NCBI GenBank assembly: GCA_026988155.1
Contig: JALSLW010000032.1
Location: 1 to 64,000 of the forward strand
Source: Methylomonas sp.
Lineage (GTDB): Bacteria > Pseudomonadota > Gammaproteobacteria > Methylococcales > Methylomonadaceae
Direction of reading: 5' to 3'
DNA: 64,000 bases
A program made the position numbers and the translations under genes. The number at the start of each line of letters is the position of its first letter. Positions within the stretch are counted from its first letter, which is position 1. The notes below the pieces were generated by a model. That model did not search any database, was not told where the DNA came from, and was given only the letters and a program-made list of their open reading frames with translations. Positions 12,574 through 28,299 of the stretch are shown piece by piece.

Positions 12574-13446
12574 CTACATCTTTTCAGTTAATTTTAAATA
12601 TCGCTGATAGCGTTTCATAGGGATTTTACCTGCTTCAGCTGCAACCCTGACCGCGCAGTCTTTGTCTTTCAAATGACGGCAATTGCTAAATTTGCATTGT
12701 TCAAGTAAAGGCTGAAATTCACGATATCCCCAGGCTAATTGCTGTTCTGTCATATCAGCCAAGCCAAATATTGCAACTCCAGGGCTATCGATTAAATCGC
12801 CACCTTCTGGCAAATGATAAAGTGTAGCTGCCGTGGTGGTGTGCCGGCCATGTTTAGTGATTTCAGATACAGTATTGGTTTTTAACAGCTTGTCAGGAAT
12901 TAAAGCATTGGTCAAAGATGATTTTCCAACGCCTGATTGACCGGCAAAAATGCTGATATGGCCATTTAATGCGGCTTTAAGCCCAGCAATGCCAATATTT
13001 TCTATTGCACTGACTTTGTGCAGTTTATATCCTAAGTCTTGGTATTGCTGTAATTCTTCTTCCAGATTATTTATGTTGGTTAGGTCAACTTTATTTAACA
13101 CTAACACCGCATCAATATTTCTATTTTCGCATATAGCCAGATACTGGTCGATCAATAAAAAGTCACAATGCGGTTCAGTAGCAAACACTACATAAATTTT
13201 GTCTATATTGGCAGCTACAGGGCGTGTTTTTTTATTTCTGCTTGGGCGTTGCAATAAAGAACGTCTTGGCATTATCTGTTCAATACGCCCCTGATCAGGT
13301 GATGTCTTGATGACCATCACCTTGTCCCCGACAGCTACTGTTTCAAGCTTTCGCCGAGTTTGGCATAGAATAATGGCGCCTGATACTTCAACTGCAATGC
13401 CTTGTCCAAGATGAGAAACGACGAGTCCTTCAGTCAGTTCGGACAT
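12574..13446 (-). CDS. rsgA: Ribosome-maturation GTPase RsgA
   Basis: This 290-residue protein is RsgA (YjeQ), a circularly permuted GTPase that checks late 30S ribosomal subunit assembly. The permuted order is clear: an N-terminal OB-fold, then G4 (NKVD), G1 (GQSGVGKSS) and G3 (DSPG). The C-terminal zinc finger appears as C-x5-C-x-H-x5-C in CKFSNCRHLKDKDC. It is shorter than the E. coli protein (350 residues), mostly at the N-terminus, but all motifs are intact. It lies 3 bases after the M48 protease gene, so the two form an operon. orn is divergent from the pair; rsgA-orn linkage is common in gammaproteobacteria. Confidence 0.96.
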   Translation of the reverse strand: MSELTEGLVVSHLGQGIAVEVSGAIILCQTRRKLETVAVGDKVMVIKTSPDQGRIEQIMPRRSLLQRPSRNKKTRPVAANIDKIYVVFATEPHCDFLLIDQYLAICENRNIDAVLVLNKVDLTNINNLEEELQQYQDLGYKLHKVSAIENIGIAGLKAALNGHISIFAGQSGVGKSSLTNALIPDKLLKTNTVSEITKHGRHTTTAATLYHLPEGGDLIDSPGVAIFGLADMTEQQLAWGYREFQPLLEQCKFSNCRHLKDKDCAVRVAAEAGKIPMKRYQRYLKLTEKM

Positions 13447-13449
13447 TAT

Positions 13450-14712
13450 TTATGACATTTTGGTTTGTAAATGGGCAATGCGGATGGCCGCTGGCGGGTG
13501 ACTGTAATGAAAGGCGGAATATAGGGGGTCGGGTGTTAATGTACTGGCATTTTCTTCATATAATTTAACTAACCCGCTGATCATCTTGCTGGCTTTGGCA
13601 TTGTCAGATGCAAAATCATCGGCTTCAAATTCAAATTTACGCTGAAAATAAGCACTGATCGGCTGCATAAAAATAGTGAAAACAGGGGAAACCAGGGTAA
13701 AAAGCAATAATGCGGCTGCATTTGAATGAGTATCAACGCCTAAGCCGCTAAAGAACCAGTCCTGATTGATTAGCCAACCTAAGATGGCAAAGCTGATAAG
13801 CGTCATGAATGCAGAGGCAATCAGCATTTTAATGACATGTTTACGTTTAAAGTGGCCTAATTCATGCGCTAAAACGGCTTCCAGTTCTTCATCGTCCAAA
13901 GAGTCTATTAAGGTGTCAAAAAATACAATGCGCTTGTTGTTTCCCATGCCTGTAAAATAAGCATTACCGTGGCCTGAACGTTTGGAACCATCCATAATAA
14001 AAATGCCGTTGCTATTGAAGCCGCATCGCTCCAATAATCCTTGAATGCGTGTTTTTAAAGCACCATCTTCCATCGGGGTAAACTCATTAAATAGAGGCGC
14101 TATCACGGTGGGAAACAGCCAGCTCATCAATAAGGAGAAACTCATTAAAATTGCCCAGGCGTATAGCCACCATAAATCGCCAACGCTATCCATAACCCAA
14201 AGAATGAGGGCAAATATAGGCATGCCAATAGCGATAACTAATGATAGGGATATTGCCTGATCTTTAAAAAACCTGGCAACGGTACTTTTGTTAAAGCCAT
14301 ATTTTTCTTCGATGACAAAAGTTTGGTATAAGCTGCTGGGGATTTCTAGCAGCGTCATAATTATAATGATGCTGCCCACCGCACCCAGGTCTGTGAGCAT
14401 CGGAGACAATCCAAAAGAAGACCACATTTTAAACACGGCTGAGATACCGCCGCCCAAGGTAAGTATCAGAAGAAAAATAACCCCGACAATGCCATCTATT
14501 GTCCCTAATCGGCCGTTATCTATTGTGTAATCCGCCGCTTTTTGGTGTGCATCTAAAGAGACTGATTCTTTAAATGCATCAGGAACAGCACTTCTATGCT
14601 CCAATACAAAAGATTTTTGACGGCTGGAAAGCCAGTGCTGAATGGAGTATGAGACCACTACTGCAATTAAAAATATGATGGTAAATGTATTCATGGGTAT
14701 TTGGTCGAACAT
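13450..14712 (-). CDS. M48-family Ste24-type membrane metallopeptidase
   Basis: This 420-residue protein resembles Ste24/CAAX prenyl protease 1 homologues of bacteria. The zinc site HELGH lies in EAVLAHELGHFKRKH, and the third ligand Glu in KFEFEADDFA. Several membrane helices precede and follow the site, as in the Ste24 barrel. Bacteria lack prenylated CAAX proteins, so the substrate is unknown; related proteins act in membrane protein quality control. The start could be Met1 or Met7 (MNTFTII); neither has a good ribosome site. This gene is often placed beside orn and rsgA in gammaproteobacteria, as here. Confidence 0.93.
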   Translation of the reverse strand: MFDQIPMNTFTIIFLIAVVVSYSIQHWLSSRQKSFVLEHRSAVPDAFKESVSLDAHQKAADYTIDNGRLGTIDGIVGVIFLLILTLGGGISAVFKMWSSFGLSPMLTDLGAVGSIIIIMTLLEIPSSLYQTFVIEEKYGFNKSTVARFFKDQAISLSLVIAIGMPIFALILWVMDSVGDLWWLYAWAILMSFSLLMSWLFPTVIAPLFNEFTPMEDGALKTRIQGLLERCGFNSNGIFIMDGSKRSGHGNAYFTGMGNNKRIVFFDTLIDSLDDEELEAVLAHELGHFKRKHVIKMLIASAFMTLISFAILGWLINQDWFFSGLGVDTHSNAAALLLFTLVSPVFTIFMQPISAYFQRKFEFEADDFASDNAKASKMISGLVKLYEENASTLTPDPLYSAFHYSHPPAAIRIAHLQTKMS

Positions 14713-17102: not shown

Positions 17103-17185
17103 ATAAGTGGTTTATACTGTTTTTTTATGATCATATTAAAATAATGTGTTATAAAGACATTATTTTTTTTAAGGAGTGTGTAAAA

Positions 17186-18085
17186 GTGAATAAAGTAATA
17201 AAATTGTTGGCTATGGGGGTATTGGGAACGGGGATGCAGCAGGCTCAGGCGACGTCTATAGTGTTTGATTACGGGTATGATTCAAATAGTTTTTTTGATA
17301 CCCAAGCAAAAAAAGATGTTTTGGAGGCTGCGGGCAGTTTTTTTTCAAGTCGTCTAAATGATAGCTTAAGTGCTATTGATTCAGCTGGGAATAATCATTT
17401 TAATGCCAATTTTAGCAACCCAGGAGTAACGGGTTCTACAGTTACAATCAATGATTTTAATGTAGCCGCCAATACCTTAACAGTATTTGCCGGTGGGCGT
17501 GCAATTGCAGGGTCTACTATTGGTATAGGTGGTCCGGGTGGGTATGGTGCTAGTGGCAGTCAGGCGTTTTTTGATTCTTTTGATAGAGGACAAGCAGATG
17601 TGGGCACAACTGATTTTGCACCTTGGGGGGGCGCAATAACTTTTGACACTGGGGCTTTGTGGTATTTTGATAGTGACGTTAGCACGGTTGAGTCTTTTTC
17701 AGGCAATGACTTTTATTCTGTTGCAATTCATGAACTGGGGCATTTATTAGGGATTGGAACTGCAGATTCTTGGGATAATCTCGTAAGTAGCGGCAGTTTT
17801 ATAGGTTCTGCTTCTAATGCTGTATATGGAGGCGATGTTCCTTTGCACTTAGATGATTCTCATTGGGCTGATGGCACAATGAGTTTGGTCGATGCCCAAG
17901 ATGCTCAAGATGTTGCAATGGGTCCATCTATTACTACAGGTACCAGAAAATATTTTACGGATCTTGATTTGGCAGGATTGACAGATGTTGGCTGGGAAGT
18001 TAGTGCGGTTCCCGTTCCTGCAGCCGTTTATTTTTTCGGTTCAGCTTTGTTAGGTTTAGGCGCTTTTCGTAAAAAGTCAAAATAG
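17186..18085 (+). CDS. PEP-CTERM-anchored metzincin-type metalloprotease
   Basis: This exported protein of about 299 residues carries the zinc motif HELGHLLGIG (His182, His186). Position 11 of the motif is not His, but a later SHWADGTM segment offers His226, and VAMGP supplies a possible Met-turn (Met245). This arrangement resembles leishmanolysin-like M8 proteases, where the third ligand is distant. The protein ends in a PEP-CTERM tail (VPVPAAVY, hydrophobic helix, RKKSK), so it should be handled by exosortase. I chose the GTG at 17186 because AAGGAG lies 9 bases upstream and the product then begins with a good signal peptide; an ATG at 17144 would add 14 odd residues. A small secreted protein is encoded 3 bases downstream. 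Confidence 0.82.
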   Translation: MNKVIKLLAMGVLGTGMQQAQATSIVFDYGYDSNSFFDTQAKKDVLEAAGSFFSSRLNDSLSAIDSAGNNHFNANFSNPGVTGSTVTINDFNVAANTLTVFAGGRAIAGSTIGIGGPGGYGASGSQAFFDSFDRGQADVGTTDFAPWGGAITFDTGALWYFDSDVSTVESFSGNDFYSVAIHELGHLLGIGTADSWDNLVSSGSFIGSASNAVYGGDVPLHLDDSHWADGTMSLVDAQDAQDVAMGPSITTGTRKYFTDLDLAGLTDVGWEVSAVPVPAAVYFFGSALLGLGAFRKKSK

Positions 18086-18615: not shown

Positions 18616-19455
18616 ATGACACCGGCCCAGCTTGCTTCAGAAGTCGAAAATTTATTTTCACTTCCTGAGGTCTATTTCAAAATAAAAAAAATAATTGATC
18701 ACCCTGCATCTACAGTGAATGATGTAGCAGATGTTGTTGTCCAAGATCCTAATATTTCTGCCCGTATTTTAAGAATCGTTAACAGCTCGTTTTTTGGTTT
18801 TGCTACAGAAATTGAATCTATCCCCAGGGCGATTAATATCATGGGCATGGCACAGCTGCATGACCTGGCTTTGACCATTTCAGCGACCAAGGCTTTTAAA
18901 GGCATTAAAAGCGACCTGATTAATATGAAAGACTTTTGGCTGCACAGCATCTATTGTGCAGCCATTGCAAAATTGATTGCTAGAAAGTGCAACGTTGTTG
19001 ATAGCGAACGTCTTTTTGTATCAGGGATTCTTCATGATATAGGCCATTTAGTCATATACACTAAATTGCCCTCTCAAACGGCTAAGCTGTTAGAAACAGC
19101 AAAACAGCAGCAGATACCGCTTGCACAGCTGGAAAAAAAGACCTTGGGTTTTGACTATGCAGAAGTAGGTGGAGAATTGCTGCAATTATGGAAACTGCCT
19201 ACCTGTCTCTGTCATACAGTTCACCACCATACGCATATTCAAAATGAGGAACAATTTGCCATTGATGCGGCCATTATTCATATTGCCAATATTCTGGTGC
19301 TTCAGGAGGAGAGCGAGAAAACAGGCCTAAAGGCACCAAAAATAGATCCGATGAGTTTTCAGCTGACTTCGTTGACTGAAGATGAGCTAGCTCCATTAAA
19401 AATAGAAGCCAAAAAAAATATGGCAGATATTTTGAAACTTTTATTTACTCAATAA
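18616..19455 (+). CDS. HDOD-domain signalling protein
   Basis: This 279-residue protein is a stand-alone HDOD domain, a relative of HD-type phosphohydrolases that is usually non-enzymatic and found in signalling networks. The N-terminal LPEVYFKI segment and NSSFFGF are characteristic, and RAINIMG matches the family core. It still keeps an HD dyad (His140-Asp141 in GILHDIGH), which many HDOD proteins lose. It heads a co-oriented run with a sensor kinase, a receiver and a GGDEF-EAL protein, so it probably acts in that pathway. The ATG lacks a strong ribosome site. Confidence 0.88.
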   Translation: MTPAQLASEVENLFSLPEVYFKIKKIIDHPASTVNDVADVVVQDPNISARILRIVNSSFFGFATEIESIPRAINIMGMAQLHDLALTISATKAFKGIKSDLINMKDFWLHSIYCAAIAKLIARKCNVVDSERLFVSGILHDIGHLVIYTKLPSQTAKLLETAKQQQIPLAQLEKKTLGFDYAEVGGELLQLWKLPTCLCHTVHHHTHIQNEEQFAIDAAIIHIANILVLQEESEKTGLKAPKIDPMSFQLTSLTEDELAPLKIEAKKNMADILKLLFTQ

Positions 19456-19478
19456 CTTGTTTTGGGCAATTGACAGAA

Positions 19479-20933
19479 ATGAAAAAAATAATTGGATACC
19501 GCACTGGATTAGCCATGATTTTCGCCTGTTTATTAGTGACGGTGCTGATTGCTTATATTTCTACTGATTATTTAAAGGCTGGCATAGACGTATCTGAAAT
19601 TTCAGTTGCTGGTCAGCTGCTCTGGCCTGTTTTTTTATTGCTACCGATTACTTATTGGATAATAAGTCGAGAACTTAAGCCACTTAAGCAAGCGTGTATA
19701 AAATTAGAAGCAGCGATGAAGCAGCAGAATATTAGTCAGGTCAGCAGTACTAACCATGTGTTCAAGGATTTTATGAACAATTTTGAGCGCTTTGTGTCTG
19801 AAGTTGATAAGCGTTCTGTCAAGTTAAGTCAGCAGCAATTTAAATCTGCCGCTTCTGCTCTGGCCTTAACTTATCAGCGACAGCGTACAGAATCAGCTTT
19901 GCAATCGTTGCCAGATGCTGTGTTAGTGATGGATGAAACAGGCAAAGCTTCCTTTGTCAATTCCAAGCTGACACTTTTGATAGGCGTTAATATTGACAGC
20001 ATTATAGGAGCCAAACCCCATGAATGGTGTCAATATCCAGATATTGTCAATCTGCTTTCCAAGTATCAGCATCATCAGCTGCGATTTCAGCGATCTGATT
20101 CCGTTGAAATAACTCCTGAACATAATCCGGATATTACAGTTTCAGTCAGTGCGTATCCACTTTTTTCATCTAAGGAAAGTGACAGCATTTGTGGGACTTT
20201 GGTGGTTTTTAAAGATATAAGCAGTAAAATTTTAGCAGACCGCGCAAGAGAAGAGTTTATCAATCATGTTTCCCATGAGTTGAAATCACCTTTAAATGTT
20301 ATTCACATGTATGCAGAATCCTTATTGGATCCTGAGTTGCCGAATGAGCAGCTGGTAAGCTCCATTAATGTCATTAATGATGAAGCAGAACGGCTTGGCA
20401 ATCTTATTGGCAACTTATTAAATATATCTAAAATTGAAGCAGGCAGTATTGCCATCAATATGCAGAGGGTGAAACTCAATGAATTTTTGCAGGATACTTT
20501 TGATAGTGTTGCAAGAAGCGGAGATGACAGCGGTATTCAATTTGAACTGAATTTGCCACCGAATTTGCCGAATATCCAGCTCGATAAAGACTTGCTTAGA
20601 GTGGCACTGAATAATTTATTGACTAATGCCGTTAAATATAACAATCCTCGGGGGAAAGTCAGTTTATCTGTAGAAGAAACTGACGAGCAAATTATTCTGA
20701 CAATCAGTGATACAGGAATAGGTATAGCTGAGAAAGATCAAGCCTATGTTTTTGAAAAGTTTTATCGCGCAGATGATGATGAAGTGACTCAGCGCGGCGG
20801 TCATGGCTTGGGACTTGCATTGGCAAAAGAAATTATTGATTTGCATCAGGGGGCGATACAGTTGCAAAGCACTATAGGTAAGGGCAGCGTGTTTACAATA
20901 GAGCTGAAAAAAACCAGCTCCTTTTTGAAATAA
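19479..20933 (+). CDS. PAS-containing sensor histidine kinase
   Basis: This protein of about 484 residues has two membrane segments in the first 65 residues, a linker, a PAS domain (about 140-250), and a HisKA/HATPase pair. The H box is FINHVSHELKSPLNVI, the N box NNLLTNAVKYN, and the ATP lid shows DTGIGI and GGHGLGLALAKEI. All residues needed for kinase activity appear intact. The periplasmic loop between the helices is short (about 25 residues), so sensing may be in the membrane or through the PAS. I prefer the ATG at 19479 to an in-frame TTG three codons earlier. The receiver gene follows 6 bases later and is the likely partner. Confidence 0.93.
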   Translation: MKKIIGYRTGLAMIFACLLVTVLIAYISTDYLKAGIDVSEISVAGQLLWPVFLLLPITYWIISRELKPLKQACIKLEAAMKQQNISQVSSTNHVFKDFMNNFERFVSEVDKRSVKLSQQQFKSAASALALTYQRQRTESALQSLPDAVLVMDETGKASFVNSKLTLLIGVNIDSIIGAKPHEWCQYPDIVNLLSKYQHHQLRFQRSDSVEITPEHNPDITVSVSAYPLFSSKESDSICGTLVVFKDISSKILADRAREEFINHVSHELKSPLNVIHMYAESLLDPELPNEQLVSSINVINDEAERLGNLIGNLLNISKIEAGSIAINMQRVKLNEFLQDTFDSVARSGDDSGIQFELNLPPNLPNIQLDKDLLRVALNNLLTNAVKYNNPRGKVSLSVEETDEQIILTISDTGIGIAEKDQAYVFEKFYRADDDEVTQRGGHGLGLALAKEIIDLHQGAIQLQSTIGKGSVFTIELKKTSSFLK

Positions 20934-20939
20934 AATAGT

Positions 20940-21314
20940 ATGAAAAAAATACTTATTGCAGATGACGAACCGCATGTAACAATGGTATTAAAACAGTTTT
21001 TGGAACGGTCGGATTATCAAGTGACAACTGTGCTAAATGGCCAGCAGGCATTGGCTCAAATTGCCAGGGAGATGCCTGATTTATTGATTACTGATGTGCA
21101 AATGCCGAAAATGAATGGCATTGATCTATGTGAAGTGATTAATCGAAGTTTTCCTGAATTACAGAAATTAATTATCGTTATGACTTCGCGTACTGATGGT
21201 GATATTCGTACTTGGGTAAAACCTTATGACCACATAGAGTTAATGGAAAAGCCTTTAAGCATGCGTCGTCTAACCAGTCGCTTAAATGATTTTTTTGCCC
21301 AGCAGAGCGAGTAA
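20940..21314 (+). CDS. Single-domain response regulator
   Basis: This 124-residue protein is a receiver domain alone, without an output domain. The phosphorylation site is Asp52 in LLITDVQMPKMNG, with Asp8/Asp9 for metal binding, a Thr/Ser in VMTSR and the conserved Lys in MEKPLS. It lies 6 bases after its likely kinase and 3 bases before the GAF-GGDEF-EAL gene. A receiver without an output domain must act by protein contact, so the neighbouring c-di-GMP protein or HDOD protein are likely targets. Confidence 0.94.
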   Translation: MKKILIADDEPHVTMVLKQFLERSDYQVTTVLNGQQALAQIAREMPDLLITDVQMPKMNGIDLCEVINRSFPELQKLIIVMTSRTDGDIRTWVKPYDHIELMEKPLSMRRLTSRLNDFFAQQSE

Positions 21315-21317
21315 AGA

Positions 21318-23483
21318 ATGAAACCAAAGATCAGTCTGGTAAATTTAACGAAATATCTGCCATTTTTTACTCCGGTCGCCAAAAAAGGACATGCCTTGGC
21401 GATATGCAATTATATAGGCAAGCCGCTATTATCAGAATTATCGGATGAGCTATCACAGCAGTCCGCCTTTTCTATGCAAGAAATTACAAAACTTATAAAC
21501 TGGGATTCAGCTAGTGAAAGTAAGGGGTATTTGCATATTGAAAATAGTGGTTATATTTTTTTTAGCCCTTTAACGTTAGGTGCAAATGAGAACTCCTACT
21601 GGCTGGTAGGGATTCAAAAAACAGAGCAGATTTTATCTCAGCAGCAAATTGAAAATCAGTACATTAAATTTCAGCATATTGCTACATGTCTGACTGAAGA
21701 CTTTAACCATACAGAAACAATTACCGGCATGGCTGATGAGCTTTCTGTACGCTATGAAGAACTAAACCTGCTTTATGGCATAGATGATATTGAATCATTT
21801 TATAAGAATAATGATGAAGAAAAATCACTTAAACAGATTGCTCAAAACTGTGTTGATTATCTGAATATTGATTATGCGGCCATTTATATTCCAGAACATG
21901 ATTTCTTTTTTCATCAGCTTAGTTCCAGTACTTCAATAGCTAATGAGAACTATTTGGAAGAAATCATCCGTCAGCACCTATATGGCTATATTACAATCAG
22001 TCCTGAAACTTTGGTCATTAACAGAAACAATGATATAGACTGGACGGATGCCAATCTGCAGATTCCTAATAAAATAATAGCTGCTCCAATACTCCAGGCT
22101 AATCATACAGCTTGCGGGCTGCTGGTTTTGATTAATTCTTTAGAAAGGCTAGATTTTTCCAATAGTGATCGAAAATTAACTGAAGTTCTTGCTGCCGAAG
22201 GATCAAAACTGATTCAGGCCCGCCGTGATCCAACCACTGGTCAGCTTAATCGTCGCGGTTTTACTGAAAGGCTAGAAAAAACGTTGGCTGAACGGCAGGC
22301 TAATATAAGAGACTGCCTTTTAGTTATTGATTTGGATCATTTTAAAGTAGTGAATGATACCGCTGGCCAAAAAGGTGGTGATCAGCTATTAAAACAAATT
22401 ACTGCACTGATATTAAAGAATCTAAAAAAAACAGACACACTGAGCCGGCTGGGGTCGGATGAATTTGCCATTATTTTAAGGCAATGCAATCTCGTTCATG
22501 CAACAGAGATCGCGGAAAGGATTCGGCTGACAATTAAACAGTTTCGATTTTTATATCAGGAGAAGATGTTTGATTTATCTGCCTGTTTAGGTGTTGTAGA
22601 GTTAAATGTAGAAATAAAAGACTTTTCTCAGGCGCTGGGAGCCGCCGATTTGGCGTGTTCAGTGGCAAAAGAGCAGGGAAGGAACCGAGTGCATATCTAT
22701 CAGTCATCTGATGAAATGCTGCTGAAACATGAAAATGAAATGCTTTGGATCAGTCGGATTAATTTAGCATTGGAAGAAGATCTGTTTCAGATTTATCGCC
22801 AAAAAATAGAATTGCTGCATGGAGATATTGGCAGTGAAGAGCATTATGAAATACTGATTCGATTAAAAGAAAGGAATGGCGAGGTTTTATCCCCATTTCA
22901 TTTTATCCCCACAGCGGAACGCTTCAATTTAATGCCTAAAATAGATCGTTGGGTTATTAAAACAGCCTTAAAAAGAATGGCGGAAGAATTTGCTAAGTTC
23001 CCCGATTCAAAACTGGTCTGTTCAATCAATCTGTCCGGACAATCATTTTCAGAAGAGGGTTTTGTTAGCTATATTAAAGAGCAGATCAATAAGTTTTCAG
23101 TACCAGCGGATAGAGTCTGTCTTGAAATGACTGAAACGGCCGCAGTTTCAAATCTTACCCAGGCGGTTAAATTTATGGAAGAGCTAAAGGCGTTTGGGTG
23201 TCGCTTTTCGCTTGATGATTTTGGCAGTGGCATGAGCTCATTTACCTATTTAAAAAACCTGCCTGTCGACTACCTAAAGATAGACGGCTATTTTGTTAAG
23301 ACTATGATAGAAAATAAAATTGATAAAGCCATGGTTAATGCTATTCACCAAATTGGCAGTGTGATGGGGTTAAAAACGATCGCAGAATTTGTAGAAAATG
23401 ACGAGATAATGAATGAGCTGAGGAAAATGGGGGTTAATTATGGACAGGGCTATGGCATTCATAAACCAGAACACTTTATCTGA
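21318..23483 (+). CDS. GAF-GGDEF-EAL protein, probable c-di-GMP phosphodiesterase
   Basis: This 721-residue protein has an N-terminal region with a GAF-like domain (about 160-300), then a GGDEF domain and an EAL domain. The GGDEF motif is altered to GSDEF in SRLGSDEFAII, and the RxxD inhibitory site is replaced by KKTD, so cyclase activity is doubtful. In contrast the EAL domain keeps its catalytic set: EIL at the EAL position, INLSGQSF, LEMTET, LDDFGSG, YLKID, TIAEFVEN and GQGYG. It therefore probably degrades c-di-GMP, perhaps with the GGDEF part as a GTP sensor. It sits between the receiver gene and the pseudopilus ATPase gene. Confidence 0.92.
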   Translation: MKPKISLVNLTKYLPFFTPVAKKGHALAICNYIGKPLLSELSDELSQQSAFSMQEITKLINWDSASESKGYLHIENSGYIFFSPLTLGANENSYWLVGIQKTEQILSQQQIENQYIKFQHIATCLTEDFNHTETITGMADELSVRYEELNLLYGIDDIESFYKNNDEEKSLKQIAQNCVDYLNIDYAAIYIPEHDFFFHQLSSSTSIANENYLEEIIRQHLYGYITISPETLVINRNNDIDWTDANLQIPNKIIAAPILQANHTACGLLVLINSLERLDFSNSDRKLTEVLAAEGSKLIQARRDPTTGQLNRRGFTERLEKTLAERQANIRDCLLVIDLDHFKVVNDTAGQKGGDQLLKQITALILKNLKKTDTLSRLGSDEFAIILRQCNLVHATEIAERIRLTIKQFRFLYQEKMFDLSACLGVVELNVEIKDFSQALGAADLACSVAKEQGRNRVHIYQSSDEMLLKHENEMLWISRINLALEEDLFQIYRQKIELLHGDIGSEEHYEILIRLKERNGEVLSPFHFIPTAERFNLMPKIDRWVIKTALKRMAEEFAKFPDSKLVCSINLSGQSFSEEGFVSYIKEQINKFSVPADRVCLEMTETAAVSNLTQAVKFMEELKAFGCRFSLDDFGSGMSSFTYLKNLPVDYLKIDGYFVKTMIENKIDKAMVNAIHQIGSVMGLKTIAEFVENDEIMNELRKMGVNYGQGYGIHKPEHFI

Positions 23484-23564
23484 TGTGGCACCATAGGGAT
23501 AAGGCATATCTTGTCTCAGCATCTTATACAGATAATTATCCTCCAGCTTCCTAAATAAAAGGCA

Positions 23565-25598
23565 ATGACAGAAATCACCCGCAGTCGTGTTGGCACCAAC
23601 ACCTATTTAGCCCCACAAGGCTCGCTTGCTGATTCGCTTACATTAGAAGCGCTGCAGCAAGAAGTCGACAGCTGTATAGTCAAATCTGAAACCCAGCTGA
23701 TTATTGATTTGAGCCATGTGCCCACCTTGGCAAGCAAAGTTATAGAGTCACTTCTTGACTGGCAGGATGATCTTATCCCCAAGGGCGGCAAGCTCACTAT
23801 TGTCAATGCTAACCCCGTCAATCAAGATGTCTTTTATATTACAGAGCTGGATAATTATATCCAGGTTGTCACTCGGCATAATGAAACGGCAAGGGATGAA
23901 TCCTCAGCTATCTATAAAAATAAAAGACTGGGTGACTTGCTGATTGACAAAAAACTAGTTACCCCAGAAAACCTTGATAAAGCACTGCAGCTGCAATCAG
24001 CAACAGGCAAACGCATGGGTTCCATTTTGGTTGAAAAGGGCTGGGTCTCAGAAACCGACTTGCTAAAAATTCTTAGCAAACAGTTAGGCATCCCTTACCT
24101 GCATTTAAGGCCTGGTGTCTGGGATACGGCTATTAGCAATATCATCAATAAGGATACCCAGCAGAGGTTAAACATACTGCCTCTATTTAAAATACACAAA
24201 AATCTTATCGTTGCAACCAGTGATCCGCAAAACCTAAATGCCCTTGATGAATTGCGTAAACTGACTGGCTGCACAATTAAACCTGTACTGGCTAAAAGTG
24301 AGGAAATAGCGCGGCAGTATAAAGACTCCATGGATGATGAAATAGACATTTCGGAATATTTAACTAACCTGGAAGAAGATTTTGAAGTTGTAGAAGAAAA
24401 TAAGCTGGAAGATTTTGCCACCATTGATGAAATGTCCAGTGGCAGTCCTGTAGTCAATTTGGTCAATGCATTAATCCAGCGGTCTATTCGTGATGGTGCC
24501 AGTGATATTCATATTGAACCGTCCCGTGCAAAATGCAGAGTTCGTTTTCGGCTTGATGGCGTTCTATATGAAGTGATGAACCCAGCCTATGAAATGCATC
24601 CTGCGATTGTATCAAGATTGAAAATCATGGCTAACTTAGATATTGCTGAGCGTAGACTGCCACAGGATGGCCGTATTCAAGTTAATACTCAGGGCAGAAG
24701 TGTGGATCTTAGACTTAGCACTTTGCCGGGAATATTTGGTGAAAAAATTGTTTTGCGGGTACTTGATGAAAATCAAAGTATTCTGGATATTAATAAGCTC
24801 GCATTATCTGATGCCAATCAAGCAGCCTTTATAAATTTATTAAACCGCAGTCATGGATTGATTTTAGTGACAGGGCCAACGGGCAGCGGTAAAACAACCA
24901 CGCTATATGCCGCCATAAATCATTTAAACTCTATTGAAAAAAGCATTGTCACCATTGAAGACCCTGTAGAGTATCAGGTTGATATAGTCAACCAAAACCA
25001 GGTCAAAGAAGCTATAGGTTTAACTTTTGCCAATATTTTAAAGCATGTACTGCGACAGGACCCTGACATTATTATGGTTGGTGAAATTCGTGATCACCAG
25101 ACTGCAGAAATTGCTGTGCAGGCCGCATTAACAGGGCATTTAGTGTTATCAACCCTGCATACAAATGAAAGTACCGGAGCAATTACCCGTTTGATTGAAA
25201 TGGGGATAGAACCGTATTTGCTATCATCTTCTCTAATTGGCGTTGTTGCGCAACGCTTATTGCGTACAGTTTGTAAAGACTGTAAAACCTCGTACCTGGC
25301 AAGTCCTGAAGAAATAGATCGCTACTGCTGGCAAGATCAGGGGCAAGTTCGGTTAATGAAAGGCCGGGGCTGTCCCGTATGCTATGACTCGGGCTACAAA
25401 GGCAGGGTAGCCGTGCATGAAGTGTTAACAGTTGATTCTCCGCTGCAGAAGTTGATGGTGACTAACCCAAACCAGGATCAGCTGTTAGAATTTGTAAAAA
25501 ATAAAGGGATGAGAACATTATTCGGTGATGGTGTTGACCGTGCTTTGCAGGGCAGTACGACTTTGGAAGAAGTGGTACGTGTTGTGGCCTCAGGATAA
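23565..25598 (+). CDS. STAS-fused GspE/PilB-type secretion ATPase
   Basis: This 677-residue protein has an unusual N-terminus: residues 1-100 look like a STAS domain (LAPQGSLADS; LIIDLSHVPTLAS; GGKLTIVNANP; ITELDNYIQV). A type II secretion ATPase follows: the N-terminal GspE domain (about 115-270) and the hexameric ATPase with Walker A GPTGSGKTT (about 437), the Asp box VTIEDPVEYQ, Walker B IMVGEIRD and the His box LSTLHTNES. A four-Cys zinc site (CKDC, CPVC) is present, as in PilB and GspE. The ATPase would power pilus or pseudopilus assembly. The STAS part keeps a Ser where anti-sigma-antagonist STAS domains are phosphorylated, suggesting control by a kinase. GspF and pilin genes follow. 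Confidence 0.9.
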   Translation: MTEITRSRVGTNTYLAPQGSLADSLTLEALQQEVDSCIVKSETQLIIDLSHVPTLASKVIESLLDWQDDLIPKGGKLTIVNANPVNQDVFYITELDNYIQVVTRHNETARDESSAIYKNKRLGDLLIDKKLVTPENLDKALQLQSATGKRMGSILVEKGWVSETDLLKILSKQLGIPYLHLRPGVWDTAISNIINKDTQQRLNILPLFKIHKNLIVATSDPQNLNALDELRKLTGCTIKPVLAKSEEIARQYKDSMDDEIDISEYLTNLEEDFEVVEENKLEDFATIDEMSSGSPVVNLVNALIQRSIRDGASDIHIEPSRAKCRVRFRLDGVLYEVMNPAYEMHPAIVSRLKIMANLDIAERRLPQDGRIQVNTQGRSVDLRLSTLPGIFGEKIVLRVLDENQSILDINKLALSDANQAAFINLLNRSHGLILVTGPTGSGKTTTLYAAINHLNSIEKSIVTIEDPVEYQVDIVNQNQVKEAIGLTFANILKHVLRQDPDIIMVGEIRDHQTAEIAVQAALTGHLVLSTLHTNESTGAITRLIEMGIEPYLLSSSLIGVVAQRLLRTVCKDCKTSYLASPEEIDRYCWQDQGQVRLMKGRGCPVCYDSGYKGRVAVHEVLTVDSPLQKLMVTNPNQDQLLEFVKNKGMRTLFGDGVDRALQGSTTLEEVVRVVASG

Positions 25599-25790
25599 AA
25601 ATACAGGCTAGGAAAATAGGGTGTGTATGCCTCTAAATTCATTTGATTTATATGGATGCTGTTATCCTCGAATCTATGGGCGGGGGGGTATTCTGATAGT
25701 AGCAAGGTTTCTCTTCGGTTTGAGATGACAGAATGTTGGCTATACCTATCAAGCCAAAGCTGTCAGATCACTAGAATAAAGGAAAAAGTC

Positions 25791-26909
25791 ATGGCGATAG
25801 AAATTGAAAAGGCAGCATCTGCTAAAAAAACCAGTGCAAATATCAATATAAACATAAATCTAACTGGCCCGACAAAAGTTACGGCTAAAGACCGTATGTT
25901 TTTTATTGAACAGCTGGCCTTAATGATAGAAACGGGCAGTGATTTGCACACGAGTCTGGATATACTGCAGCAGCAAGTTAAAAAACCGGAACTGGTCAGA
26001 GTCATCTCTGATATTAGAGATAAAATAGGTGAAGGAAAAACCTTTTCCAGTGCAATGGCTAAACACCCTGAGGTTTTTTCCGGTACCTATGTCAGTTTAA
26101 TCGAAGCAAGTGAAAGTGGCGGCTATTTGCAGCGCATTCTGGAGCATCTGGTTGAAATGGAAAAGCAGCGGGATGAATTGAATACTTCACTGATATCGGC
26201 TGTTTCCTATCCTGCATTTCTAATGGTATTTTCAGTTGCGATGGTAATTTTTATACTGGTCGTAGTGTTTCCAAAATTTGCAGAGATGTTTGTTGCCATT
26301 CAGGATCAGCTGCCTTCCACAACCCTATTTTTAATGGCAGCCAGCCATATTATTATCGACTATTGGTGGGCTATACTGCTTGGGATTTCTGTTTTGGCCA
26401 TGGGGTGTTCTGTCTGGCTTAAAAGCGAATCTGGCAATCAGGTAGTTGCTAGTTTTAAGCTAAAGGCGCCGGGAATTAAACATATCTTTATTAAAATATA
26501 TTTAATTCAGATTATGCGGGTGCTGGGGTTGTCTCTAAAGCATGGGGTCAATTTGGTTGAGGCGTTGGGGATATCTAGAGATGTTGCAAAAAACCATATT
26601 TTTCATCAATTTGTAGATGGCCTTATTGATAATATCAATGATGGAAAAAAGTTGGCATTCGGTTTTAATGAAGCTGTATTTATTCCGCCTATGGTCAAGC
26701 AAATGATTGCCACTGGAGAAGAAACAGGGAACTTAGCTCTTGTTTCTACACGTATTGCAGATTATTTTCAGAAAGAATTGGAAAAGCAGCTACAATTAGT
26801 TACAAAGGCAATTGAGCCTATTATGCTAATCGTTATGGGGGTAATTGTAGGTGTATTGGTTAGTTCGTTAATTTTGCCCATTTTTAAATTATCCCATGCG
26901 GTACATTAA
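25791..26909 (+). CDS. GspF/PilC-type inner-membrane platform protein
   Basis: This 372-residue protein carries two T2SS-F domains with three hydrophobic segments, as in GspF and PilC. Characteristic blocks are FIEQLALMIETGSDLHTSLDIL, the GESGG-like SLIEASESGGYL, and a second copy around QIMRVLGLSLKHGVNLVEAL and MVKQMIATGEETG. The ATG at 25791 has an AAAGGA ribosome site; the open frame upstream of it is unlike the family. It lies 192 bases after the ATPase gene. It would anchor the ATPase to the growing pseudopilus in the inner membrane. Confidence 0.93.
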   Translation: MAIEIEKAASAKKTSANINININLTGPTKVTAKDRMFFIEQLALMIETGSDLHTSLDILQQQVKKPELVRVISDIRDKIGEGKTFSSAMAKHPEVFSGTYVSLIEASESGGYLQRILEHLVEMEKQRDELNTSLISAVSYPAFLMVFSVAMVIFILVVVFPKFAEMFVAIQDQLPSTTLFLMAASHIIIDYWWAILLGISVLAMGCSVWLKSESGNQVVASFKLKAPGIKHIFIKIYLIQIMRVLGLSLKHGVNLVEALGISRDVAKNHIFHQFVDGLIDNINDGKKLAFGFNEAVFIPPMVKQMIATGEETGNLALVSTRIADYFQKELEKQLQLVTKAIEPIMLIVMGVIVGVLVSSLILPIFKLSHAVH

Positions 26910-26962
26910 TTATAAATTTTTAAAATGAAATATGCTATAGATCACACAAATGATTTTCAGTT

Positions 26963-26992
26963 TTGAAAAAAATAAATTAATGCAACTATAAT
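26963..26992 (+). promoter_or_regulatory. Probable sigma-70 promoter of the pilin-like gene
   Basis: TTGAAA (26963-26968) and TATAAT (26987-26992) are spaced by 18 bases, and the pilin ATG lies 27 bases downstream. This would allow the abundant pilin to be made separately from the ATPase and platform proteins. No sigma-54 type -24/-12 motif is seen. Confidence 0.55.
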
Positions 26993-27019
26993 TGCTATAT
27001 ATTTCCATAGGAAACTAGT

Positions 27020-27598
27020 ATGTCCCAATACTCTTTAAAAAAACAATTAATCAAGGGGTTTACCCTTGTAGAATTATTGATTGTTGTTATTATTTTGGCT
27101 ATTTTAGCGGCTATTGTGGTACCTCAGTTTGCTAGTTCTACTGATGATGCAAAATTATCTTCTTTAGACACAACCTTAGCTAATATGAGATCAGCTATAG
27201 ATCTTTATTATCAGCAGCATGGGAAATACCCAGGCGCTGTTATTTCATCCGGCGCTACATGTGATGCCGGTACTGCTGATACAACTGGGTCTACTGGAAG
27301 CCTTGATAAGGCTTTTATTGCTCAGTTAACGCGCTATACTAATGCGACGGGTCAAGCATGTACAGGAAGTGGTGTTAATTTTAAATATGGTCCCTATCTT
27401 AAAAAAGATGTACTGCCTAATAATGCAATTACAGGGAAAAATACAATTACCATTAGTACTGCAGGTGTTTTAGGAATGGTATCAACTACTACAGATCTTA
27501 GTAAAGGGTGGCTATTTGATACAAAGACGGGGCAATTTATTGCTGATGATCACCGTCTTGTACCTCCAAGTACTACGGAATATTATGATATGCGTTAA
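27020..27598 (+). CDS. Type IV pilin-like / pseudopilin protein
   Basis: This 192-residue prepilin has a short basic leader ending in Gly13, the class III cleavage site KG/FTLVELLIVV with Glu5 of the mature chain, and the long hydrophobic N-terminal helix. The rest is a globular domain with a Cys pair (TCDAG, QACTG) and a C-terminal WLFDTKTGQF segment, which recalls the GspG end WLY-x-P-x-TG. It should be processed by a prepilin peptidase, whose gene is not in the window. With the ATPase and platform protein it completes a three-gene assembly set. Only one pilin gene is seen, unlike T2SS operons with four or more. Confidence 0.93.
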   Translation: MSQYSLKKQLIKGFTLVELLIVVIILAILAAIVVPQFASSTDDAKLSSLDTTLANMRSAIDLYYQQHGKYPGAVISSGATCDAGTADTTGSTGSLDKAFIAQLTRYTNATGQACTGSGVNFKYGPYLKKDVLPNNAITGKNTITISTAGVLGMVSTTTDLSKGWLFDTKTGQFIADDHRLVPPSTTEYYDMR

Positions 27599-27741: not shown

Positions 27742-28299
27742 TTAGTTTTTTCTTAGTTCTCGGCTATTCTGTCTTAAAAGTACAAAACCAATTAAAAGTA
27801 AGGATAAAGCATGAGGTTCTGGGACTAAGCTATAGTTCTGGCTATTAAGGGAGGTATAATTTCCGGGGAGGTCCTCAAAAATACCTGTTCCTGCATAACC
27901 AGCAAAGCTCAGAAAAGCAAATGCATTATCAAAAGACGCACCATCAAGGCATGAACCATTTAAGCAGAAAATAAAATCAAGTATGCTGCCGTTCAATGAT
28001 AATAGTGCTGGCGATGCTACGCCTGTGCCAACAAATGCAGTGGAACCAAAATCACTGTTTTGTATGGATTGTGCTACGTTATCAACTTTAACTGTGTCAA
28101 TGTCAGTAACGACAACCGAGTTATTGTCTGCTTGCAGGATACCCTGAAGATTCATGTCTAGCATTGTCCCTGTTGACATTTCAAATGATAGTTCAAAGCG
28201 AGCAGCTTTCGTCTCGCCAGCAAATGAAATAAAAAGGATTAGCAGTGGCAGATAAAGCCATTGCAGGCTGTTTTGGTTCCAGTAATTATTATTTAACAT
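27742..28299 (-). CDS. PEP-CTERM sorting domain protein, unknown function
   Basis: This 185-residue exported protein has a signal peptide in its first 33 residues (LYLPLLILFISFAGETKA) and a classical PEP-CTERM tail: VPEPHALS, a hydrophobic helix and a basic end (RELRKN). It is the only one of the three in the window with a true PEP motif; the other two have VPVPA. The body is small, Ser/Asn-rich and beta-prone, with one Cys pair (FCLNGSCL). No enzyme motif is seen. It converges on the pilin gene. Confidence 0.85.
   Translation of the reverse strand: MLNNNYWNQNSLQWLYLPLLILFISFAGETKAARFELSFEMSTGTMLDMNLQGILQADNNSVVVTDIDTVKVDNVAQSIQNSDFGSTAFVGTGVASPALLSLNGSILDFIFCLNGSCLDGASFDNAFAFLSFAGYAGTGIFEDLPGNYTSLNSQNYSLVPEPHALSLLLIGFVLLRQNSRELRKN

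Follow-up and report, generated by a model that had tools for sequence, protein, structure and literature searches.

What is the function of seven co-oriented genes that place a histidine kinase, a receiver and an enzyme of cyclic di-GMP (c-di-GMP) turnover directly before a pilus-type motor? The genes lie at 18616-27598 of the window, the 64,000-nucleotide stretch of contig JALSLW010000032.1 of Methylomonas sp. (GCA_026988155.1) analysed here; this is contig C32 of a 3.4-Mb genome in 107 contigs (G000). A sequence-only reading had taken them for a signalling module joined to a minimal three-gene assembly machine. They are more probably (at a rough probability of 0.6) the control-and-motor block of a complete, adhesive type IV filament under c-di-GMP and phosphorelay control, with its other blocks on two further contigs. 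Judged from its sequence, the machine has its signalling built in and is best read as what looks like a new subtype within the type IV filament superfamily.

All seven genes are present in the order first described; each open reading frame (ORF) is intact, in the same orientation, and above its curated Pfam cut-off. The assembly ATPase (hereafter STAS-GspE), the platform protein and the pilin with its prepilin motif, all above cut-off, place the cassette in the type IV filament superfamily. The gene arrangement is far from chance, since it recurs in 22 genomes.

Minor pseudopilins and a secretin are absent locally, as the sequence-only reading stated, but not from the genome. Proteins of a relative, G086, used as queries (identity 32-57%), identify H-I-J-K pilins on contig C66 (C66:18538-22082) and PilM-N-O-P-secretin on contig C52 (C52:1660-5745), where a diguanylate cyclase gene directly precedes the block. 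The ORFs of the C32, C52 and C66 blocks are all open and catalytic residues are intact; unrelated genes lie on either side of the C32 and C66 blocks. In relatives these parts are contiguous with the cassette. In G086 it runs on into H, I and J; the genes for a K-like pilin, PilM, PilN, PilO, a PilP/GspC-like protein and a secretin of 451 amino acids (aa) form a divergent operon. A distant relative (L065/L091) has a single co-oriented run: kinase-receiver-GGDEF/EAL-STAS-GspE-F-G-H-I-J-K-PilM-N-O-P-secretin. Two Methylomonas genomes have the genes in two places, as E-F(-G-H) and as J-K-M-N-O-P-secretin, with unlike neighbours. The cyclase adjoining pilM, both on C52 and in G667, has an intact GGDEF motif.

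Of 151 relatives, 8 have a PilM orthologue, among them all six genomes that encode STAS-GspE (hypergeometric 1.9e-9, kinship ignored); the two beyond these six are fragments at contig edges of incomplete genomes. At the sequence level, the PilM block and the motor are thus co-inherited. The whole genome has one prepilin peptidase, which is therefore shared by all systems, as had been expected. On C66, the genes for the J-like and K-like pilins are separated by a GIY-YIG-type ORF of 147 aa (C66:19646-20089; L057 7646-8089). The J-like pilin (L057 8114-9061) has tandem DxDxDG calcium-binding-type repeats, as does its counterpart in G025.

The genome also carries PilB, two type II secretion system (T2SS) loci, a mannose-sensitive haemagglutinin (MSHA) pilus locus on contig C79 and a solitary GspE. 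Membership of the cassette in the genome's own type IVa pilus (T4aP), T2SS-1, T2SS-2 or MSHA system was rejected, as each has its own set of parts and the cassette ATPase falls in a separate clade. In a tree with the paralogues of this genome and of ten others, the STAS-GspE proteins form a single clade (support 100/99); the placement of the long-branched MSHA, solitary and T2SS-2 rows is unsure. The solitary GspE-type ATPase gene (C26; L005/L024) has no pilin genes nearby and adjoins a SulP-like transporter gene.

Could the machine be a third, divergent T2SS? A periplasmic pseudopilus would then push enzymes or surface proteins through the secretin at a rate set by the signalling genes, and the K-like pilin, with its carbohydrate-binding module (CBM), would be a substrate-recognising tip. 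E-F-G-H-I-J-K followed by equivalents of L, M, C and D is T2SS content in T2SS order, a GspL split into PilM and PilN is plausible as an old state, and the K-like pilin lacks Glu5 in its sequence, as does T2SS GspK. Family models point the other way. The cassette ATPase scores 587.3 against the T2SS GspE cut-off of 630.25 (TIGR02533), which the genome's own T2SS-1 GspE passes (667.6); this test is weak alone, as its own T2SS-2 GspE (533.2) is also below the cut-off. The cassette pilin fails the GspG model TIGR01710 (51.1; cut-off 88.85), whereas both T2SS GspG proteins of the genome pass (171.4 and 152.7). The secretin fails the GspD model TIGR02517 (188.6; cut-off 351.35). GspC, GspL and GspM have no family match above cut-off (T2SSM 23.2 against 27.8; GspC no match); the inner-membrane parts pass PilM_2 (74.2) and PilO (31.2) instead. 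The short secretin (456 aa) scores best with PilQ. In addition, a short periplasmic pseudopilus would hardly be tipped by a K-like pilin that carries one to several CBM96 modules with lectin or propeller modules. A divergent T2SS is unlikely on this evidence, though it retains a real share of the probability.

Models of known pili are not passed either. The ATPase scores 590.5 with the T4aP PilB model TIGR02538 (cut-off 675.65; own PilB 863.5), and the secretin scores 193.6 with the T4aP PilQ model TIGR02515 (cut-off 284.35) and 151.4 with the MSHA MshL model TIGR02519 (cut-off 250.2; own MshL 263.7). The sequence-only reading had named, as one finding that would refute it, a pilin set from a known full T2SS or type IV pilus locus split off only here. 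This is half the case: the set does belong to a full locus, but one of neither known type, in which the signalling genes are included.

The K-like pilin suggests the output of the machine. The GspK-like protein encoded on C66 combines a prepilin-type N-terminus with CBM96 (42.0 bits) and DNRLRE (84.9 bits) matches, and CBM96/DNRLRE is found in all 11 K-like pilins scanned, from the window genome and 10/10 relatives. Some have extra modules: an NHL/LDL-receptor-type propeller in one and a laminin-G-type lectin in two. The simplest K-like pilin gives a low-confidence structural model (predicted local distance difference test, pLDDT, 58.5) with a long helix at the N-terminus and a beta domain whose nearest match is a chondroitin-sulfate-binding CBM; this is supporting evidence at most. 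By analogy with GspK, the K-like pilin would sit at the filament tip. Adhesion is the likelier output because K-like pilins carry CBM96/DNRLRE and modular adhesive pilins are known in Streptococcus sanguinis (PMC8179133, PMC9934059); secretion is a live rival.

The signalling genes follow the motor through a wide range of hosts. STAS-GspE is encoded in 6 of 311 genomes of the order, in none of the 8 other genomes of the genus, in 16 of 369 genomes of a class sample (about a dozen gammaproteobacterial families) and in 2 of 398 genomes of a phylum sample. Each of these counts includes the window genome; the survey total is 22 genomes and 23 loci. The same ATPase at 65-68% identity is encoded in metagenome-assembled genomes named Methyloglobulus, Methylobacter and Methylomonas, in keeping with a gammaproteobacterial methanotroph as the probable host. 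L068 (Desulfuromonadales) was rejected as a relative; it has an MshEN fragment only, in an unrelated locus. G572 has two STAS-GspE loci (L094, L096), one of them with a K-like pilin of 1678 aa.

Kinase and receiver genes lie directly upstream of STAS-GspE in 21 of the 22 loci where the contig extends far enough, and a GGDEF-EAL gene lies beside it in 21 of 23. As a control, this GGDEF-EAL gene is found within 1.5 kb of none of 26 other GspE paralogue loci in the window genome and ten carriers. A weak receiver match adjoins pilB of the window genome (C61, L021 3690-5922), where a 264-aa receiver protein and a 481-aa HDOD-like protein are encoded. If joint transfer alone had made these genes neighbours of the motor, they would regulate transcription or global c-di-GMP and would not act on the motor; G320, which runs the machine without them, and the absence of an output domain from the receiver fit this explanation. 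However, the adjacency survives even where rearrangement has broken up the remainder of the locus (in the window, Methylomonas, G454 and G800), and the ATPase itself has a c-di-GMP-binding domain, which makes a mere neighbourhood quite improbable. The signalling genes and the assembly ATPase are one conserved unit, in agreement with the coupling first proposed.

A minimal device of E, F and one pilin with signalling genes, lacking secretin and minor pilins, holds for the window taken alone, but is scarcely credible when this genome encodes an intact orthologue of every missing component and the PilM block is inherited together with the motor. Decay toward a set of pseudogenes in this lineage, to which the three-way split, the lost kinase sensor region, the GIY-YIG ORF and the lack of the system elsewhere in the genus might point, is highly improbable given the open ORFs and intact catalytic residues of all three blocks.

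The ATPase had been described with one extra N-terminal domain; the extra part is there, and it comprises two domains. A STAS domain (residues ~1-105) and an MshEN c-di-GMP-binding domain (~115-250) precede the T2SSE motor (292-672). Scores are above cut-off for STAS (Pfam 35.1; cut-off 22.6) and for MshEN (Pfam 54.9; cut-off 23.1), as well as for the 53-residue double motif of NCBIfam c-di-GMP_motif (71.0; cut-off 38). In a model of the N-terminus (pLDDT 81), the STAS fold matches SpoIIAA and RsbV, and MshEN is nearest to c-di-GMP-bound MshE (5htl). The full motif of MshEN receptors is two copies of RLGxx(LVI)(LVI)xxG(LVI)(LVI)xxxxLxxxLxxQ (PMC5013675). In the window both copies are nearly complete: motif I has all but the second glycine (K), and in motif II an L is replaced by M and a hydrophobic position by W. 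Of 22 sequences, 20 keep Ser57 of the STAS domain, presumably the counterpart of the phosphorylated serine in SpoIIAA.

Kinase, receiver and EAL residues are intact, as had been read from the sequence; the GGDEF motif is not. The phospho-acceptor histidine is invariant in all 20 aligned kinases. The window kinase has 487 aa, compared with 604-618 aa in most relatives, and lacks an extracytoplasmic sensor region of ~120 residues. The DD, phospho-acceptor D and KP residues of the receiver are conserved in the alignment. In the GGDEF-EAL protein the GG(D/E)EF signature of diguanylate cyclases is absent: the motif is GSDEF in the window and GADEY, SSDEF, NGDEF or GEGRF in relatives, some of which alone have it intact. 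The EAL catalytic residues (E, N, E, DD, K, E, Q) are kept in the window and nearly all relatives. Since EAL residues are conserved while the GGDEF signature decays, the most fitting reading is a phosphodiesterase whose GGDEF half senses GTP or has a structural role; such halves are described in FimX and hybrid enzymes (PMC11656802).

The sequence-only reading had proposed looking for all seven genes together in other genomes. The kinase-receiver-GGDEF/EAL-STAS-GspE block does recur, without a constant HDOD gene. HDOD is present in three of five methanotroph relatives (L062, L063, L064), is a 35-residue remnant in L060 and would lie beyond the contig in the fifth. Among the loci examined outside the methanotroph family it is absent from all but G436, which has two copies downstream; HDOD is therefore an accessory, not a core member.

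A mechanism can be proposed. The kinase-receiver pair would sense a membrane or cytoplasmic signal and steer the GAF-GGDEF-EAL phosphodiesterase. The MshEN domain would read local c-di-GMP, whose source in this genome would be the cyclase beside pilM, and a signalling partner may dock at the STAS domain or gate the motor through it. The permitted motor would polymerise the GspG-like pilin, processed by the housekeeping prepilin peptidase, through the secretin into a filament. The K-like pilin would cap the filament and bind polysaccharide with its CBM96/DNRLRE domain (elsewhere also a lectin domain). It is a tentative suggestion that this is an undescribed type IV filament class, defined by a carbohydrate-binding tip pilin, a dedicated phosphorelay and phosphodiesterase (plus cyclase in some), and a motor that integrates c-di-GMP (MshEN) with a protein or phosphoserine signal (STAS).

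Several observations count against a c-di-GMP-controlled adhesive filament. The second-glycine position of MshEN motif I is K, E or Q in Methylococcaceae, and the relative L101 lacks motif I; given these changes, c-di-GMP binding may be weak or lost. G320 keeps the machine but has neither the kinase and receiver genes nor the GGDEF-EAL gene; the last is also missing from G346. The kinase of the window lacks the sensor region of its relatives, and the sequence in which receiver, phosphodiesterase and STAS would act is guesswork. Adhesion depends on one domain, and CBM96/DNRLRE occurs on secreted enzymes too. Finally, in an assembly of 107 contigs the three-way split lacks closed-chromosome proof, and C52 ends just upstream of the cyclase gene.

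Coordinates of the cassette genes and one promoter-like site in the window
Feature	Position	Strand	Basis
HDOD protein, accessory signalling gene, 279 aa	18616..19455	+	Pfam HDOD 202.7 bits
Membrane histidine kinase, 487 aa, PAS + HisKA + HATPase_c	19470..20933	+	Pfam and alignment
Single-domain receiver, 124 aa	20940..21314	+	Response_reg 82.9 bits
GAF-GGDEF-EAL protein, 721 aa, predicted c-di-GMP phosphodiesterase	21318..23483	+	Pfam and alignment
STAS-MshEN-GspE assembly ATPase, 677 aa	23565..25598	+	Pfam STAS 35.1, MshEN 54.9, T2SSE 453.5 bits
GspF/PilC-type platform protein	25791..26909	+	T2SSF 161.2 bits; start set by alignment
Promoter-like site 5' of pilin gene, TTGAAA-18-TATAAT, 11/12	26963..26992	+	Consensus scan alone
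Major pilin, GspG-like, 192 aa, prepilin motif KGFTLVELLIVV	27020..27598	+	N_methyl 28.9 bits

The GspF ORF opens at 25656; alignment with relatives places this listed start 45 codons too early, and 25791 matches all relatives. With GspF starting at this conserved position, the intergenic gaps are 14, 6, 3, 81, 192 and 110 bp. The promoter scan finds no more sites overall than in shuffled sequence, and an Rfam search of the locus gives no match. The 5' neighbours (an M10-type metallopeptidase-like gene and a small ORF) and the 3' neighbours (a reverse-strand PEP-CTERM-like gene, then truD, named by eye from sequence) are unrelated to the cassette. Genes with PEP-CTERM-like sorting tails lie at 17144-18085 (+) and 27742-28299 (-) of the window, between GspF and GspG in L064, and at 13275-13982 (-) in L065; such genes are common in these hosts, and chance may explain why several genomes have them beside or within the locus.

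Tuning of pilus motors by c-di-GMP is known, yet it is difficult to follow the signal all the way from the sensor to the motor. In the present system one conserved block encodes the sensor, the receiver, the phosphodiesterase and the motor; the chain can therefore be rebuilt from few genes. The STAS domain suggests, as a testable idea, that this pilus motor takes a second input. Another such idea comes from the carbohydrate-binding modules that the K-like pilin has at every locus checked: a polysaccharide-gripping filament in biofilms of methanotrophs and in other environmental biofilms.

Open-access literature yielded no description of a STAS-bearing GspE/PilB, of DNRLRE with pili, or of a methanotroph T2SS or pilin, and nothing of use on the Geobacter Oxp cluster as a possible relative; the machine is provisionally new, in that it is previously unnamed in the open-access papers searched. 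The survey of Denise et al. left 884 'generic' systems with ATPase, platform and pilin unclassified (PMC6668835), and a system of the present kind would plausibly fall among these. With T2SS it shares the E-F-G-H-I-J-K order, a GspG-like major pilin, a GspK-like minor pilin without Glu5 and a secretin. It differs from T2SS in its PilM/N/O/P-type inner-membrane parts, small PilQ-like secretin, CBM96/lectin modules on K, STAS-GspE, resident phosphorelay and phosphodiesterase, and in failing the T2SS model cut-offs. The MSHA pilus and its motor MshE (PMC5013675, PMC7096442) have a similar N-terminal MshEN receptor and PilM/N/O-like parts. The MSHA pilus is an adhesive filament, which the present system would also be. 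In contrast to MSHA, which has its own locus here and whose MshL model the secretin fails, the cassette has an additional STAS domain and signalling enzymes in the operon. FimX and PdeK-PdeR (PMC11656802) are alike on paper, with a kinase, a receiver, a degenerate GGDEF plus EAL and a c-di-GMP-tuned motor; these regulators act on T4aP PilB, whereas here a conserved gene block has a different ATPase with STAS and MshEN. PilB and PilC of Streptococcus sanguinis (PMC8179133, PMC9934059) likewise graft a binding module, in some cases lectin-type, onto a pilin N-terminus for adhesion. They belong to a monoderm type IV pilus, while the present system is diderm and has its CBM96/DNRLRE modules on a GspK/PilX-like pilin.

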